Assembly: GCF_000711295.1 (NCBI RefSeq)
Contig: NZ_JOMJ01000003.1
Coordinates: forward strand, 1,437,501 to 1,501,500
Length of the DNA stretch: 64,000 nt
Reading direction: 5' to 3'
Source of the DNA: Desulfohalovibrio reitneri
Lineage (GTDB): Bacteria; Desulfobacterota; Desulfovibrionia; Desulfovibrionales; Desulfovibrionaceae
Position numbers and translations under genes: made by a program
Shown: in pieces, positions 58,254 to 64,000 of the stretch
Layout of the letters: every line of letters starts with the position of its first letter
Numbering within the stretch: the stretch's first letter is position 1
The notes under the pieces: model-generated
Told to the model about the DNA's origin: nothing
Seen by the model: only the letters and a program-made list of their open reading frames with translations
The model's database searches: none

Positions 58254-58658
58254 TCACTTGTCCAGGAAATCGGTGAGGATCTTGACCGTCTTTTCCAGCT
58301 GCGCGGCCGCCTCTTCCTCGGTCTCGGCGTTCACCGCCCGGGTGTGGCAGGTGCGCACGTAGCGGCGCAGCACTTGGCGGGTGGTGGACTTCAGGGCCGA
58401 GGAGACCGCCTTGACCTGGATGAGGATGTCCTCGCACTCCTTGCCCTGGCGCACCATGCCCTGGATGCCGCGCACCTGGCCCTCGATGCGTTTGAGCCGG
58501 GAGAGGACGTCCTTTTGCAGGTCGTCCAGCTTGGGTGCCTCGTCTTGGGCGGCGCCGTCCCCCCCGCGTTGCGTTTGCCCGGCTCGCGGGTCATAATGCT
58601 GGGAGCTACTCCCCCGCACCTCGTCCCCAACGGAATTTTTCGATGCATTCTTCTTCAT
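58254..58658 (-). CDS. CsoR/CstR/RcnR-family (DUF156) regulator
   Basis: 134 residues from the ATG at 58658 with AGGAAGGA upstream. A ~45-residue charged N-terminal extension precedes the helical core, VLSRLKRIEGQVRGIQGMVRQGKECEDILIQVKAVSSAL. The two family cysteines are in GKECEDI and VRTCHTR, but the histidine four residues before the second Cys in copper-sensing CsoR is Tyr here (YVRTC). That pattern fits a persulfide-sensing CstR-like protein better than a Cu(I) sensor. The start overlaps the divergent TorD gene. Confidence 0.85.
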   Translation of the reverse strand: MKKNASKNSVGDEVRGSSSQHYDPRAGQTQRGGDGAAQDEAPKLDDLQKDVLSRLKRIEGQVRGIQGMVRQGKECEDILIQVKAVSSALKSTTRQVLRRYVRTCHTRAVNAETEEEAAAQLEKTVKILTDFLDK

Positions 58659-59293
58659 GTGATTCCTTCCTGCTGGACGCCCTGAACCTGCTGCAGCACC
58701 TCTTCGCCGGGCCGGACCAGGGTTGCCCGGAGATGCTGTCCACCGACCTGCCCGCCTTCGCCACGGCCCACGCGGACCGGGATGACACCTGCGGCCGCGC
58801 CCTGGTGGAACTGGCAGCCGCCCTGCCGACCCCGGACGGGGCCGAGGCCTTCTGCCGGGAGCTGGAGCCGGAGTACGTGCGCCTCTTCGTCAGCTCGCTC
58901 GGTGGAGTGGCCGCCCCGCCCTACCACTCCTGCCACCCGGCCCCGCACTCCGGCGGGGAAGCCCGCATGATGGGGCCACCGGCGCGGCGCATGGCGGAGA
59001 GGCTCCGGGCCTCCGGCCTGGACACCGATCCCGGCGGGCCGCCGCCGGACCACCTCTGCGTGGAGTTGGAGTATCTCTCCCTGCTCCTGGAGTCCGGCTC
59101 CGGGGAATCCGCGGCCGAGGCGCGCGCCCTGGCCGGGGAAATGTTGGACTGGACCTCCCGCTTCGGACGGGCCGTGGCCAAAGCGGATGCGCATCCCTTC
59201 TACTCCTCGGCCTGCCTGCTGCTTTCGGCCTGCCTGGACGCCGTGGCCACCTTGCCGCCAGCGGCCACCCAGCCCTTGAAACCGACGGGGTAG
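58643..59293 (+). CDS. TorD/DmsD-family molybdoenzyme chaperone
   Basis: 216 residues from ATG 58643. It is all-helical, with the TorD-type core LEPEYVRLFVSSLGGVAAPPYHSCH (about 75-100) and the later DHLCVELEYLSLLLE. These chaperones bind the Tat signal of a molybdopterin subunit until the cofactor is inserted. The obvious client is the molybdoenzyme encoded at 62498. The 5' end overlaps the CsoR-like gene by 16 bases and the 3' end overlaps the small rhodanese frame antisense by 94 bases. Confidence 0.87.
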   Translation: MHSSSCDSFLLDALNLLQHLFAGPDQGCPEMLSTDLPAFATAHADRDDTCGRALVELAAALPTPDGAEAFCRELEPEYVRLFVSSLGGVAAPPYHSCHPAPHSGGEARMMGPPARRMAERLRASGLDTDPGGPPPDHLCVELEYLSLLLESGSGESAAEARALAGEMLDWTSRFGRAVAKADAHPFYSSACLLLSACLDAVATLPPAATQPLKPTG

Positions 59294-59706
59294 CGCAGCA
59301 CGTTGCCGTATCCGAGACGCGCCGCCCAGCGCGCCGCGATGGGGCTGCGCAGTCACCTGAAGCCCCGGCAGTAGACCACCACCGGCCGCTTTAGATCGCA
59401 CCCCAGCAGGTCCCTGAAATCCTCTTTTTTTTCCTTGGGCAGCCTGTCCGCCTCGGCCAGGTCGAAGGACATGTTCACGGCGCCGGGGATGTGTCCAGCG
59501 CGGTATTCGTAATCCGGGCGCACGTCAAGCAGCAGCGCGTCGGGGTCGCCGGCCAGCAGCTTTCGCAGTGCGGGGGTGTCGATGAGGTGGTAGCCGTGGC
59601 GCTCGGCCTGGCGCTGGGCGTCGTCCCACCAGATGGGCCGTTCCTCCGCCGGGGCGGCGGATGCCAGGATGAAAAGCAGAAGAATCGCGGCGGGGGCGGT
59701 TTTCAT
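59200..59706 (-). CDS. small exported rhodanese with in-frame TGA (possible selenoprotein)
   Basis: ATG 59706, signal peptide (ILLLFILASAAPAEE), and a rhodanese domain with LLLDVRPDYEYRAGHIPGAVNM. The frame meets TGA at 59353-59355, directly after the active-site loop VVVYCRGFR. Beyond it the same frame continues LRSPIAARWAARLGYGNV and VGFKGWVAAGG, clearly the missing C-terminal third of the fold, to TAG at 59200. In the neighbouring triple-rhodanese protein the gap-free equivalent of the TGA is a Cys (CGGYHC-KLSHK). TGA may therefore encode selenocysteine. A plain nonsense mutation giving a 117-residue product is the alternative. Confidence 0.75.
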
Positions 59707-59772: not shown

Positions 59773-60900
59773 TTACTTGTTGGGCGTGATGGTGTAGCCG
59801 CCGTCCTCGGAGTACTCGATGGTGGCCTCGATGTAGTAGACATCCTCCATGTCGGGGCGCTTGTCGAGCATCATGTAGTAGCACTCGCCGGAGCGCGCGC
59901 CGGTGGAGCAGACAAAGACCACGGGCTTGTCGCCGGAGAAGGACTCGATGTTCTCCTCCACCTGGTCCACGGGCATGTTTTCAGCGGACTGGAAGTGCCC
60001 GGCCTTGTACTCGTCCGGGTCGCGCACGTCGATGAGACGGACGGAGTCGGGGTTCTCCTCCAGAATCTTGCGGAACTGGGCCACGTCCATGGTGCCCATG
60101 GCGCCGCCTTCCTGGATGGCCACGGCCTGCGCGCCGCCGAACTCCTTCTTCCAGCCGGGGTAGCCGGACTCGTTGATGCGGACGTTGGTGTAGCCCATGG
60201 CGCGGGCCTTGTCCGCGGACTTGTGGGACAGCTTGCAGTGGAAGCCGCCGCAGTAGAATACCAGCTCGGTGGACTTGTCCGCGGGCAGCATGCCGGCCAT
60301 CTCCTCGAACTGGGAGTCGGGGATGTTCACGCTGGAGGGGATGTGCCCGTCAAGGAACTTGTTGTGCGGACGGGAGTCCACCAGCAGGTAGGCCTTGCCC
60401 CGCTCGGCCAGGAGGTCCTTGACGTACTCGGACTCCACGGCCACGTCGTAGCCGTGGTGCTTCCAGTCGGGCATGCCCGCGGCGTAGACCTTGACGTTGG
60501 TGTAGCCCAGCTTCTCCGCTGCGCGCGCGCCCTTGTGGGACAGCTTGCAGTGGTAGCCGCCGCAGTAGAAGACCAGCAGGGCGTCCTTGCTCTCGGGCAG
60601 CATGGTGCCCATCTCGTCGAACTTGGTCTGCGGGATGTTGATGGCCGTGGGGATGTAGCCCTTGACGTACTTGGCCATGTGGGGCCGGGCGTCGATGATG
60701 ACCACGTCGTCGGTGCGCGGCACGTTGATGTGCTGCTTGACGAAGGCGGCGTCAACGATGTCCTCGGCGTTGTAGGACCATTCGGGGGCCTGCGCGGGCG
60801 GTTCGTTGCCCGGGGCGTGCTTGGCGGAGCAGCCCGCCAGGGCCAGGGCCAGGACCACCAGGGCGGCGGTCAGCAGTTTGGCGTGGATTGCGGCTCGCAT
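59773..60900 (-). CDS. triple-rhodanese periplasmic lipoprotein
   Basis: 375 residues with lipobox LALAGC (Cys24). Three rhodanese domains follow at about 55-160, 165-260 and 275-370. Active loops are FYCGGYHCKLSHK, FYCGGFHCKLSHK and FVCSTGARSGE; the first two have the extended CxxxxC form. It probably accepts and relays sulfane sulfur in the periplasm, beside a polysulfide/thiosulfate-reductase-like complex with which it appears co-transcribed. Confidence 0.92.
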   Translation of the reverse strand: MRAAIHAKLLTAALVVLALALAGCSAKHAPGNEPPAQAPEWSYNAEDIVDAAFVKQHINVPRTDDVVIIDARPHMAKYVKGYIPTAINIPQTKFDEMGTMLPESKDALLVFYCGGYHCKLSHKGARAAEKLGYTNVKVYAAGMPDWKHHGYDVAVESEYVKDLLAERGKAYLLVDSRPHNKFLDGHIPSSVNIPDSQFEEMAGMLPADKSTELVFYCGGFHCKLSHKSADKARAMGYTNVRINESGYPGWKKEFGGAQAVAIQEGGAMGTMDVAQFRKILEENPDSVRLIDVRDPDEYKAGHFQSAENMPVDQVEENIESFSGDKPVVFVCSTGARSGECYYMMLDKRPDMEDVYYIEATIEYSEDGGYTITPNK

Positions 60901-60970: not shown

Positions 60971-61693
60971 TCATTCCTCGCCGTCTTTGGAAACGACCTT
61001 GTCGTACCAGAGACGGTGGTGGTGCTTGGCGAAGTCCGCCGGAACCGTGCCGGTGAACATGGAGCGGAAGGCCGGGCGCTCCTCCGGGGCCAGCGCCGCC
61101 ATGTAGACGTGCACCAGCAGTCCGGCGAAGATGAGTCCGGCGAAGACGTAGTGCAGCAGGATGGACCACTGGGCCAGCCAGGTCTGCTCCGCTGTCAGCG
61201 CGTTCTGGGAGAGGATCATGACGATGCCGGTCAGCGCCAGCACCACCCCGCCCACCACGGCCACCATGGCGAAGGCCTTCTGGCCCATGTTGTAGAACCC
61301 CTGCGGCGGCAGGCCGGGCTTCATGCCCGCCTTTTTCAGCCCTTCGTCGCCGAAGAGCATGTGGATGGGCTTCTTGATCATCCAGTTCACGTCGCAGCGC
61401 AGGTCCACGGAGAAGCTCTCCCGCAGGAATACCTTTGCCCCCTGGAAGTTGAAGAGCAGGTAGAGGACGAAGCCCAGTATCCAGACCACGCCCAGGATTT
61501 CGTGGATGAGCAGCAGGTTGGCCCCTCCGCCCGTCACAGCGCGCAGGGCGTCCGGCCACCAGCCGCCCACGGGGTCGATGTTCTCGTTGCTGATGAGCCC
61601 CAGCCCGGTGATGAGCAGGAGCATCCACAGCACGAAGTTGAACCAGTGGATGAAGATGTCCCAGCGGTTGTGTCGCTTGAGATGCTTGGCCAT
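60971..61693 (-). CDS. cytochrome b membrane subunit of the molybdoenzyme complex
   Basis: 240 residues. Four helices carry the histidines of formate dehydrogenase/thiosulfate reductase cytochrome b (RWDIFIHWFNFVLWMLLLITG, LLLIHEILGVVWILGFVLYLLF, LAQWSILLHYVFAGLIFAGLLVHVYM). A periplasm-facing loop links helices 2 and 3. The stop of the Fe-S gene is 1 base before its start codon, so the two are co-translated. Confidence 0.9.
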   Translation of the reverse strand: MAKHLKRHNRWDIFIHWFNFVLWMLLLITGLGLISNENIDPVGGWWPDALRAVTGGGANLLLIHEILGVVWILGFVLYLLFNFQGAKVFLRESFSVDLRCDVNWMIKKPIHMLFGDEGLKKAGMKPGLPPQGFYNMGQKAFAMVAVVGGVVLALTGIVMILSQNALTAEQTWLAQWSILLHYVFAGLIFAGLLVHVYMAALAPEERPAFRSMFTGTVPADFAKHHHRLWYDKVVSKDGEE

Positions 61694-61694
61694 G

Positions 61695-62501
61695 TCAGTC
61701 CTCCCCGCGTCCGTCTTTGGAGGACGCGTCCGGGATGTCGCAGGCTTCGTCCTGCTCCTCCGCCGGGTGTTGCCGCAGCAGGAGCTGTTTGATCGCCAGG
61801 CCCACCACGCCCAGGGCCGTGAGGCCGATCAGCCCCTGCAGCGCGGGCGTGGCCGCGCGCATCATGGTGGTCAGCGGCATGGGGATCTGGGCCCGCACCG
61901 GCCAGTCGGCCGGACTGGTGCCGCCCACGTAGTACATGTTGGGCTTGGTGTCGGACTGGGCGTTGACCACCCGCACGGTGCGGTCCTTGTTCTCGGCCAG
62001 CAGGATGGCCGCTTCGGACCCGGGGTCGTTGATGTCGCCGAAGACACGGGCCTTGGTGGGGCAGGTGTCCACGCAGGCCGGGGCCAGGCCGGCGGCCCGG
62101 CGCTCCGAGCAGTAGTTGCACTTGTCGGCCACGTTGAGCCGGGGGTGGCGGTAGCGCGCACCATAGGGGCAGGCCGGGATGCAGCTGCCGCAGCCGATGC
62201 ACAACCCCCGGTCGATCTTGACGATGCCGTCGGCCTCGTCGCGGTAGGTGGCCCCGGTGGGGCAGGCGGTCACGCAGGTGGGCTCGGAGCAGTGCATGCA
62301 GCCGCCGGGCTGGAACTGGCGCCCGGAGGCCGGGCCCTGGGCGTAGCTGGCCTCGCTCTGCTTGATCCAGTTGCGCCAGAAACCCCGGGGGACGCCGTTG
62401 GCCACCTTGCAGGAGGCCATGCAGCCCTTGCAGTCAATGCACTTGGCCGCGTCCACGACCATGGCGTACTGTTTCTTTCGGGTCTTGGTGGTGGCGCTCA
62501 T
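61695..62501 (-). CDS. 4Fe-4S subunit of the molybdoenzyme complex, membrane anchored
   Basis: 268 residues. Four clusters: CIDCKGCMASCK, CMHCSEPTCVTACP, CIGCGSCIPACP and CNYCSERRAAGLAPACVDTCP. A C-terminal helix (ALQGLIGLTALGVVGLAIKQLLL, about 215-240) anchors it, as in formate dehydrogenase beta subunits. It carries electrons between the molybdopterin subunit and cytochrome b. ATGA overlaps the stop of the molybdoenzyme gene. Confidence 0.92.
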   Translation of the reverse strand: MSATTKTRKKQYAMVVDAAKCIDCKGCMASCKVANGVPRGFWRNWIKQSEASYAQGPASGRQFQPGGCMHCSEPTCVTACPTGATYRDEADGIVKIDRGLCIGCGSCIPACPYGARYRHPRLNVADKCNYCSERRAAGLAPACVDTCPTKARVFGDINDPGSEAAILLAENKDRTVRVVNAQSDTKPNMYYVGGTSPADWPVRAQIPMPLTTMMRAATPALQGLIGLTALGVVGLAIKQLLLRQHPAEEQDEACDIPDASSKDGRGED

Positions 62502-64000
62502 GCCGCCTCCTTCCTCGTCACGGTGACGAAGGTCTCATGCATGGCCGCGTTGCCGGTCATCTCGTCCCAGCCGTCCTCCAGCAGGGCGGCGATGGAGGCG
62601 CCGTTGCCGTGCACCAGGCTCAATCCCGTGGAAAGCGCTCCGTACCCGGTGAGGGTATAGACCGTATCCTCGCGTATGGCCTCGGTGACTTCGGCCCGCA
62701 GCTCGCCCGTGCCCGCCTTGCTGGAGACCTCCACCAGGTCGCCGTCGGCGATGCCCAGGCGCTTGGCCGTATGGGGGTGCATCCAGAGGGTGTTGGTGGA
62801 CACGAACTCGTTGAGCAGGGGGTTGTCCTGGGTGGCCGAGTGGGTGTGCACCGCGCTGCGGCCCACCACCAGGCGCAGGCCGCCGCCCTTGGGATGGGCG
62901 GGTGGCTGGTACACGGGCAGGGGGTCCAGCCCCATGTCCTGGTAGCGCTGGTTGAAGAGCTCGATCTTCTTGGACAGGGTCTTGAAGATGCGCCCCTCGT
63001 AGATGCCGTACACCTTGGAGGCGTTGTAATAGACCCCGTCGCGGCGCAGGATGTCCTCGGCTTCGGGCAGTCCCTCCAGCTGGGCCGTGCGGTACTCCTC
63101 GACGGTGAAGTCGAAATACTGGCCCAGGTCCAGCCGCTCGGCCAGCCCCTTGCAGATGTCGAACATGGGACGGGTGTCGTAGAGCGGCTCGGTCACGGGG
63201 TCGCGCTGCACCACGCAGGCGCAGGCGCTGGAGCCCTGCAATCCGGCCGCCGGGTCGGCGCGCTCCAGGTAGGTGGGAGCGGGCAGCACCAGGTCGGACA
63301 TCCAGGCCGTGTCCGTCATGAGGATGTCGGTGGTGACCACGAAGTCCATGGCCTCGAACATCTTCATGGTCTTGGCCCGGTTGGGTCCGGTGCCCATGGG
63401 GTTGGTCTTGTAGATGAACCAGCCCTTGACCGGGTACGGCTTGCCCGAGAGCACGGCCTCGCGCATGAGGGTGAAGGCCCCCTCCTCCTCGAACATCATG
63501 GGCACACGCCCGGCGTCCGCGCGGTCAAAGGGGTTGTCGTCGTACCAGGGTGGTGAATAGGGGATGCCGCCCTTGAGCCCCACCTGGCGCGCGCCCAGCA
63601 GGCCGCCGGGCCGGTCCCAGTTGCCCAGCAGCGCGTTGACGATGGCGAAGCTGCGGCGGATCTGGGTGGAGTTGGAGTAGTCGGAGCTGCGGCGTCCCGG
63701 GTAGACCATGGCGCGCGGCGCGGCACGGGCCATTTCCCGGGCCATGCGCACGATGGCCTGGGCCTCGACGCCCGTCTCGTGGGCGGCCCAGCGCGGGTCG
63801 TAGCGGCGCACGTGCTCGCGCAGCTCGTCGATGCCGTAGCAGCGCTCGGTCACGAACCGCTTGTCGTACAAGTCCTCGAAAACGAGGACGTGGGCGATGG
63901 CCAGCATCAGGGCCATATCCGTGCCCGGGCGGATGGCGTACCATTCGTTGGCCAGGGCCGCGGTCTTGGTGAAGCGGGGGTCCAGGACCACCAGCTTGCA
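62498..64000 (-). CDS. molybdopterin oxidoreductase, polysulfide/thiosulfate reductase-like catalytic subunit (5' partial)
   Basis: The visible 500 residues are the C-terminal part; the gene continues past the window end. Motifs include LDPRFTKTAALANEWYAIRPGTDMALMLAIAHVL, PGRRSSDYSNSTQIRRSFAIVNALLGNWDRPGG and the C-terminal dinucleotide-binding domain (LWMHPHTAKRLGIADGDLVEVSS). These fit the PsrA/PhsA branch of the DMSO reductase family. The N-terminal Fe-S cluster and active-site ligand are not visible, so substrate choice (polysulfide, thiosulfate, tetrathionate) is open. The downstream rhodanese genes favour sulfane sulfur. Confidence 0.9.
   Translation of the reverse strand, partial: CKLVVLDPRFTKTAALANEWYAIRPGTDMALMLAIAHVLVFEDLYDKRFVTERCYGIDELREHVRRYDPRWAAHETGVEAQAIVRMAREMARAAPRAMVYPGRRSSDYSNSTQIRRSFAIVNALLGNWDRPGGLLGARQVGLKGGIPYSPPWYDDNPFDRADAGRVPMMFEEEGAFTLMREAVLSGKPYPVKGWFIYKTNPMGTGPNRAKTMKMFEAMDFVVTTDILMTDTAWMSDLVLPAPTYLERADPAAGLQGSSACACVVQRDPVTEPLYDTRPMFDICKGLAERLDLGQYFDFTVEEYRTAQLEGLPEAEDILRRDGVYYNASKVYGIYEGRIFKTLSKKIELFNQRYQDMGLDPLPVYQPPAHPKGGGLRLVVGRSAVHTHSATQDNPLLNEFVSTNTLWMHPHTAKRLGIADGDLVEVSSKAGTGELRAEVTEAIREDTVYTLTGYGALSTGLSLVHGNGASIAALLEDGWDEMTGNAAMHETFVTVTRKEAA

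Follow-up and report, generated by a model that had tools for sequence, protein, structure and literature searches.

Rhodaneses that contain selenocysteine (Sec) are already known. Table 1 of PMC13188914, in the part available, lists five rhodanese selenoprotein forms. Form 1 is a rhodanese-like selenoprotein (PF00581) with the motif UxxS, represented by WP_010941598.1, and form 5 is TsoB, a UxxxxU rhodanese/DsbD fusion-like selenoprotein that has its own NCBIfam model (NF045694). In addition, surveys that include Deltaproteobacteria report rhodanese-related selenoproteins (PMC2398784, PMC5029168, PMC8318568), among them a "sulfurtransferase homologous to a rhodanese-like protein" and rhodanese-like selenoproteins of marine deltaproteobacteria, for which the available text of these papers gives neither sequence nor motif. 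The branch described here, in which the active loop reads CxxxxU, has no model of its own in NCBIfam release 20 and is not listed in the available part of Table 1 of PMC13188914. Similarly, neither a CxxxxU loop nor a link with a Phs-like operon is mentioned in the accessible text of PMC9312934, PMC1088965, PMC2398784, PMC8318568, PMC1794560, PMC5029168, PMC12013277 and PMC12998232. None of the available papers treats selenoprotein, rhodanese and polysulfide reductase jointly. We regard the CxxxxU branch as a variant of the rhodanese selenoproteins already known, which may be the same as form 1. Rhodaneses are also linked with sulfur-reducing molybdoenzymes, as in the Sud/Psr system, and Sud is not known to contain Sec.

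The gene studied here lies in a 64,000-nucleotide stretch of the Desulfohalovibrio reitneri genome (contig NZ_JOMJ01000003.1, positions 1,437,501 to 1,501,500), hereafter the window, whose own numbering is used throughout. The host genome assembly comprises 3.39 Mb in 5 contigs and is 96.9% complete. An ORF on the minus strand, at 59200–59706 (ATG at 59706–59704, stop TAG at 59202–59200), encodes 168 residues when its single in-frame TGA (codon 118, 59353–59355, minus strand) is read as Sec; we refer to the product as Sec-rhodanese. The TGA comes directly after YCRGFR and is followed by 50 residues before the TAG. One Pfam Rhodanese domain (PF00581; 1.8e-19, 70.5 bits, cut-off 22.2) covers residues 47–148, and the TGA is therefore located inside the rhodanese domain, which bears out the original prediction that the frame opened at ATG 59706 crosses the TGA into the remainder of a rhodanese. 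As an N-terminal signal peptide of about 20 residues with the hydrophobic core ILLLFILASA can be read from the sequence (59647–59706, minus strand), Sec-rhodanese is probably periplasmic. A plasmid search retrieved five records, all of them distant.

The active loop consists of C113-RGFR-U118, the TGA being five residues past Cys113 (codon at 59368–59370, minus strand), which is the canonical catalytic cysteine of rhodaneses. Cys113 is invariant in the 25 aligned homologues, so that both the domain and the loop cysteine place the protein in the Rhodanese family (PF00581). An AlphaFold2 model built from a 25-row alignment, with Sec entered as Cys, has a mean pLDDT of 91.2, and its best Foldseek match in the PDB is 6mxv, a rhodanese-like protein. 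Cys113 aligns with the usual loop cysteine of 6mxv, the loop of Sec-rhodanese being two residues longer; Sec118 would therefore be an added second chalcogen, and not the catalytic cysteine. This modifies the original prediction, which had located the TGA at a conserved cysteine: the site does correspond to the second Cys of a CxxxxC loop, but the catalytic Cys is C113. The gapless match to the neighbouring lipoprotein on which that prediction was based (CGGYHCKLSHKGARAAEKLGYTNV) is visible in both translations.

One reading of the locus is that the TGA is a true stop, the product being a 117-residue N-terminal fragment and the downstream part being separate or regulated. TGA is the normal stop of neighbouring genes, and termination at TGA is generally expected where selenium is limiting. 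However, such a stop would leave the rhodanese domain truncated at its active loop, the remainder of the fold is encoded beyond the TGA and is conserved, and the homologues with Cys at this position are continuous chains across the site. We thus consider a true stop very unlikely. Sec-blind gene calling would nevertheless end the protein at residue 117, inside the active site, and many sulfate reducers may therefore have a conserved part of this sulfur-metabolism operon annotated as a fragment.

A selenoprotein could hardly be made in a genome lacking selABCD, as the original prediction recognized, and the host genome carries SelA (603.5 bits, cut-off 267.9), SelB (352.8 bits, cut-off 242.25), SelD (341.8 bits, cut-off 125) and a single tRNA-Sec that passes the gathering score (82.5 bits versus 47), all exceeding their cut-offs. 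ARAGORN calls this tRNA as tRNA-SeC with anticodon tca. The host selD gene (locus L053) has an in-frame TGA of its own (AAG-U-AAK), SelD being itself a selenoprotein by sequence. Two components of the machinery, tRNA-Sec and selA, were each found in 25 of 25 genomes of the compared homologues (20 with Sec, 5 with Cys at the site). Decoding of the TGA as another amino acid, such as Trp, or through a changed genetic code is a formal possibility, to which we attach next to no weight: positions without TGA are occupied by Cys in 12 of 12 distinct sequences and also in locus L104, and a dedicated tRNA-Sec with anticodon tca is available. Furthermore, a simply changed code does not fit with TGA being the ordinary stop of the PhsA, Fe-S, cytochrome b and CsoR genes (4 of the 8 genes checked, a number that includes Sec-rhodanese).

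Comparison with relatives bears on another explanation, namely that the gene is decaying or misread, its TGA having arisen from a Cys codon through a nonsense mutation or a sequencing error. TGA is a single base away from TGC or TGT, and among 75 distinct sequences the aligned site is indeed Cys in 12 (11 TGC, 1 TGT); the other 63, however, all carry the same TGA. Similarly, when 348 genomes of the order were searched with a profile, 61 matched at E 1e-35 or better; of these, 54 have an in-frame TGA, seven have no stop (Cys) and none has TAA or TAG. At the codon level, the site was read in all but three of the 54 TGA genomes (51, the exceptions being G490, G491 and G499), and two of the 54 show two TGAs within the match. 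As 14 of the 54 are listed as a single contig, the TGA is not merely an artefact of draft assemblies. Finally, the frame stays open and selected beyond the TGA (see below). Barring a single error common to all these sequences, a mutation or sequencing error thus appears exceedingly improbable, and the in-frame TGA, aligned with Cys and kept in relatives, has the pattern expected of a selenoprotein.

Smaller samples gave similar counts. The first alignment contained 20 TGA and 5 Cys among 25 homologues. A scan of named genomes yielded 31 loci, from Desulfo- lineages or broadly labelled MAGs by title, 30 of them labelled as MAG; the sole non-MAG locus (L125, Pseudodesulfovibrio pelocollis) has Cys at the site. 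Thirty of the named loci were found with a pattern allowing any residue or stop at the site, and these comprised 24 TGA and 6 TGC; seven named loci duplicating genome loci were removed. Locus L104 (IASRW) was missed by the pattern and is thus absent from the 48- and 75-sequence sets, while being present in a 49-sequence tree; it has Cys at the site and would be the 13th Cys homologue. As 13 homologues have Cys in this position (12 of the 75, plus L104), sequence comparison shows Sec not to be essential to the fold or the operon. The quick tree of 49 sequences, in which five TsoB rows served as outgroup, requires five or more changes between Sec and Cys, of which strongly supported branches force only one.

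Selection on the part of the gene beyond the TGA was evaluated from dN/dS. Over the 35 codons that follow the TGA, the 60 most similar Sec pairs had a median ratio of 0.15 (59 pairs, one having no ratio). It exceeded 0.5 in five of the 59 pairs, three of which involve the long-branch row L132, and values above 1 were counted in two pairs: L013–L132 (1.18) and the window's gene with L121 (1.00 over 35 codons). As the 35-codon stretch reaches into the end of the domain, the ratios for the window's gene were recalculated on 31 codons, which gave 0.183/0.348 against L121, a median dN/dS of 0.36 and no ratio of 1 or more among 65. Over the same 31 codons, third positions hold 1156 of 2292 differences (half), and amino acid identity is at least 0.48 in 72 pairs. 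Judging from these comparisons, the frame past the TGA is under selection. Decay of the downstream part in close relatives, which the original prediction had named as a possible sign against it, was not found, the TGA being kept in 54 of the 61 matching genomes and the median dN/dS after it being low in the pairs compared.

Many homologues extend well beyond the rhodanese domain. In the 48-sequence set, at least 200 residues follow the site in 26 of 39 Sec genes and in 8 of 9 Cys genes, and 24 of the 26 long tails of Sec genes contain a CxxC motif (the long tails of L007 and L102 lack it). Two tails, those of L013 and L009, were scanned against AhpC-TSA (PF00578, cut-off 26): the former matches with 32 bits and the latter scores 17.9 bits, below the cut-off. 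A thioredoxin-like domain fused after the TGA is thus a candidate feature of many homologues, on the basis of the two tails scanned. Sec-rhodanese of the window is devoid of this additional domain.

Since relatives retain TGA instead of Cys at this site and the full Sec machinery is present, we are nearly certain that the codon is decoded as Sec, that is, that Sec is inserted at codon 118. As a consequence of this decoding, Sec-rhodanese is almost certainly full length rather than cut short. The candidate selenoprotein put forward in the original prediction is thereby supported, as the aligned site is TGA in most distinct sequences, with Cys in the remainder, and the machinery is found in the host genome.

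Bacterial Sec insertion is expected to involve a SECIS element, described in the available text of PMC13188914 as a hairpin 16–37 nt after the UGA with a G in the first two loop positions. Two hairpins were considered downstream of the TGA. The first is the stem proposed in the original prediction (GCGC-A-GCCC with GGGC-G-GCGC; 59319–59350, minus strand), and the second is a candidate apical hairpin at 59317–59334 (minus strand), with a 7-bp stem, the loop GGGC and 25 nt between the UGA and the loop, which fits the text of the bacterial model. The proposed stem does exist, in that it is the minimum free energy structure that ViennaRNA predicts for the window sequence alone (base-pair probabilities of 0.46–0.99), but it brings no extra stability and the comparative data favour the GGGC-loop hairpin at 59334–59317. 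In 31 Sec sequences (from genera g5 and g8 and the window's mixed set; 31 of 33 segments, L144 and L161 being omitted as identical to L137 and L143), 90.3% of the cells of the GGGC-loop hairpin are paired, and a covariation score as high occurred in 1 of 500 shuffles and in no slid control out of six. Two of its pairs show double changes, but as many were obtained in 111 of the 500 shuffles and in one of the slid controls. By comparison, the originally proposed stem has 83.9% of cells paired and no double changes in the 31 sequences, and its covariation score was reached by 445 of 500 shuffles. In the 12 Cys sequences, 60.7% of the cells of the GGGC-loop hairpin are paired. The base-pair probability of this hairpin is 0.01 when the window sequence is folded alone.

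Folding energy gave no support for a SECIS. The fold of the window sequence is no more stable than that of dinucleotide shuffles (z = -0.32, 63 of 200 shuffles being as good). Against synonymous recodings, mean z was -0.43 for 20 TGA loci versus -0.76 for 5 Cys loci, and energy thus fails to separate Sec from Cys genes. A search against Rfam gave no match up to E 5. Two further approaches were abandoned: a scan with the published bacterial SECIS constraints (available text of PMC13188914), which 77% of 413 arbitrary TGAs of the region pass, and RNAalifold on 18 mixed-family sequences, which returned just 7 weak pairs at -3.7 kcal/mol.

Synonymous conservation at codons +1 to +18 provides a second line of evidence. 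In this test, which supersedes a version with serine in one block that looked stronger, serine was split into AGY and TCN, and p-values are relative to random columns. Three groups showed over-conservation, namely the genera g5 (p = 0.0005, n = 23) and g8 (p = 0.0085, n = 5) and the families f4/f5 (p = 0.0015, n = 12), and it was not significant in f2 (p = 0.21, n = 8), in Cys genes (p = 0.17, n = 12) or in all Sec genes pooled (p = 0.09, n = 63); the four groups (g5, f4/f5, g8 and f2) were hand-picked by the analyst, and the window sequence belongs to none of them. Contiguous windows as highly conserved as +1 to +18 numbered 11 of 148 in g5, 2 of 148 in f4/f5, 8 of 148 in g8, 18 of 106 in f2 and 34 of 95 in Cys genes. 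When 18-codon windows were scanned from -75 to +90, the most conserved one started at -5 to -2 in the four Sec groups and at -9 in Cys genes. An earlier test on a smaller set had given p < 0.05 in three of six Sec groups: f4/f5 (0.003), a mixed f1 set including the window (0.019, n = 7) and Pseudodesulfovibrio (0.036). In that set, Desulfobacteraceae (p = 0.53), Desulfarculaceae (p = 0.40) and all Sec genes together (p = 0.13) showed no significant effect. Other groups may have other loops (by eye, CGUGC in f4/f5 and AGGUG in part of f2). Taken together, the evidence is mixed: a putative in-frame SECIS just downstream of the TGA has some support from these sequence comparisons, though it is not proven.

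Sec-rhodanese is the last gene of an operon which also encodes, in order, a PhsA-like enzyme, an Fe-S protein, a cytochrome b and a triple-rhodanese lipoprotein, all on the minus strand. The PhsA-like molybdopterin oxidoreductase (733 aa) occupies 62498–64000 and continues to 64699 beyond the window; a RRGFLK Tat motif can be read from its sequence. Its best NCBIfam model is thiosulfate reductase PhsA (NF012032), with 539.3 bits for a cut-off of 694, and thiosulfate or polysulfide as its substrate is a guess from the family. It is followed by a 4Fe-4S electron-transfer subunit resembling NrfC/TtrB (61695–62501; all models below cut-off), a membrane subunit resembling cytochrome b561/formate dehydrogenase gamma (60971–61693; PF01292, and TIGR01583 with 93.9 bits, below the cut-off of 115.85) and the lipoprotein (59773–60900; three PF00581 stretches, lipobox LAGC read from the sequence). 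The first two rhodanese domains of the lipoprotein have CxxxxC loops (CGGYHC and CGGFHC) and the third has a CSTGARSG loop; this protein is thus a Cys version of the CxxxxU-type loop within the same operon. A second CxxxxC rhodanese, in Cys form (CGFVKC-TRSHNGA), is encoded on another contig of the host genome (L002, C1:8382-8777), and its loop type recurs in several relatives. Downstream of Sec-rhodanese lies a CsoR/RcnR-family repressor gene (58254–58658, minus strand; PF02583). A gene for a chaperone resembling TorD/nitrate reductase delta (58535–59293, plus strand; PF02613; likely ATG at 58643) is convergent and antisense to the last 94 nt of the Sec-rhodanese gene (59200–59293).

This organization is widely shared. 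Among 40 homologue loci, including two pairs from the same contigs, 37 have the Fe-S and cytochrome b genes upstream on the same strand, and 34 have the PhsA-like gene there. Five of the six loci without a PhsA-like gene have little upstream sequence; the sixth is L132, in which 4 kb of upstream sequence contains none of the operon genes. Of the 40 loci, 30 have the triple rhodanese upstream and two have it downstream, and in eight it was not separately found; a TorD-like gene is nearby in 26 and a CsoR-like gene is present downstream in 16.

We propose the following sequence of events, from operon context and general rhodanese chemistry. SelB and tRNA-Sec would decode the TGA as Sec, using the in-frame SECIS just downstream. 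Cys113 would then take sulfane sulfur from thiosulfate or polysulfide, forming a persulfide, which Sec118, in the same loop, would attack, either releasing sulfide or passing the sulfur on and leaving an S-Se bond. This bond would be reduced by a thioredoxin-like partner, possibly the one fused to the same chain in many homologues. As a partner of the triple-rhodanese lipoprotein, Sec-rhodanese could finally serve the PhsA-like molybdoenzyme by carrying sulfur or reducing persulfides. That Cys and Sec occur together in one rhodanese loop suggests reduction of persulfides over plain sulfur transfer. As a whole, it is highly probable in our view that the gene encodes a periplasmic rhodanese selenoprotein. 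The proposed persulfide role, including the relay with the PhsA-like molybdoenzyme, comes close to an even call, on the doubtful side of it.

The main competitor to the relay accepts the selenoprotein but not its tie to the molybdoenzyme: the protein would be a redox protein or simply a thiosulfate:acceptor sulfurtransferase, in which Sec118 would only tune Cys113, and the operon link would be historical. Rhodanese domains are generally known to have many uses, and the Sec and Cys forms replace each other on the quick tree, with at least five changes. Conservation of the operon across families, fusion to a thioredoxin-like domain and the parallel with TsoB, in which a UxxxxU rhodanese is fused to DsbD, all speak against this competitor, which we nonetheless take as a serious minority possibility. 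Within single genera (g102 and g5), relatives with Cys instead of Sec form natural pairs for evaluating the benefit of selenium in sulfane-sulfur chemistry.

Comparison with described systems helps to delimit what is particular to Sec-rhodanese. Among the listed rhodanese selenoproteins, form 1 shares with it a single Sec and a rhodanese domain, and U118-L-R-S121 fits UxxS, the two being compared by written motif only; for form 1, the available part of the table mentions neither a CxxxxU motif nor an operon nor a fusion to thioredoxin (PMC13188914). Forms 2, 3 and 4 also have a rhodanese domain with one Sec, but their motifs as given in the available part of the table (UxxG, CxU and UxxG, respectively) do not fit CxxxxU-LRS, and the form 3 model (NF041203) gives only 16.4 bits with Sec-rhodanese for a cut-off of 115. 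Among rhodaneses linked with sulfur-reducing molybdoenzymes (PhsABC/PsrABC), the Wolinella succinogenes polysulfide-sulfur transferase Sud (PDB 1qxn) matches Sec-rhodanese in a profile comparison (3.3e-8); the molybdoenzyme of the operon described here stays below the PhsA cut-off (539.3 versus 694).

The closest parallel in loop architecture is TsoB, whose rhodanese domain is related and has a loop of equal length, its two Sec aligning with Cys113 and Sec118. The TsoB model (NF045694) matches residues 10–165 of Sec-rhodanese with 117.1 bits, that is, through its N-terminal rhodanese part and below the cut-off of 805, and the five TsoB rows are split off in the quick tree by a branch with a support of 100. 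Nine loci encode rhodanese-DsbD-thioredoxin fusions with two TGAs per loop (FYU....UV.S; L055-L063, from G066, G032, G055, G075, G042, G063, G072, G064 and G023). These fusions first seemed new, and proved to be TsoB (L055 scores 973.1 bits for the cut-off of 805, the other eight being assigned by eye). None of the six Sec-rhodanese matches in the host genome has two TGAs. In addition, three short frames of 166–202 aa with two TGAs (L089, G218:C382; G267:C53:7018-7419; G353:C40:4928-5326) are possibly single-domain two-Sec rhodaneses without DsbD. Our broadest proposal, which we consider less likely than not, concerns Desulfovibrionales, Desulfarculaceae and relatives: their CxxxxU rhodanese would reduce persulfides or donate sulfur to a Phs/Psr-like molybdoenzyme, served by a thioredoxin-like reductant that is either fused to it or separate. 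This would represent a selenium-dependent step of periplasmic sulfur respiration not yet described. Whereas TsoB combines two Sec with a DsbD membrane domain and a thioredoxin, Sec-rhodanese has Cys at the first position and no DsbD part, and TsoB would thus be its fully selenolated, membrane-coupled cousin.
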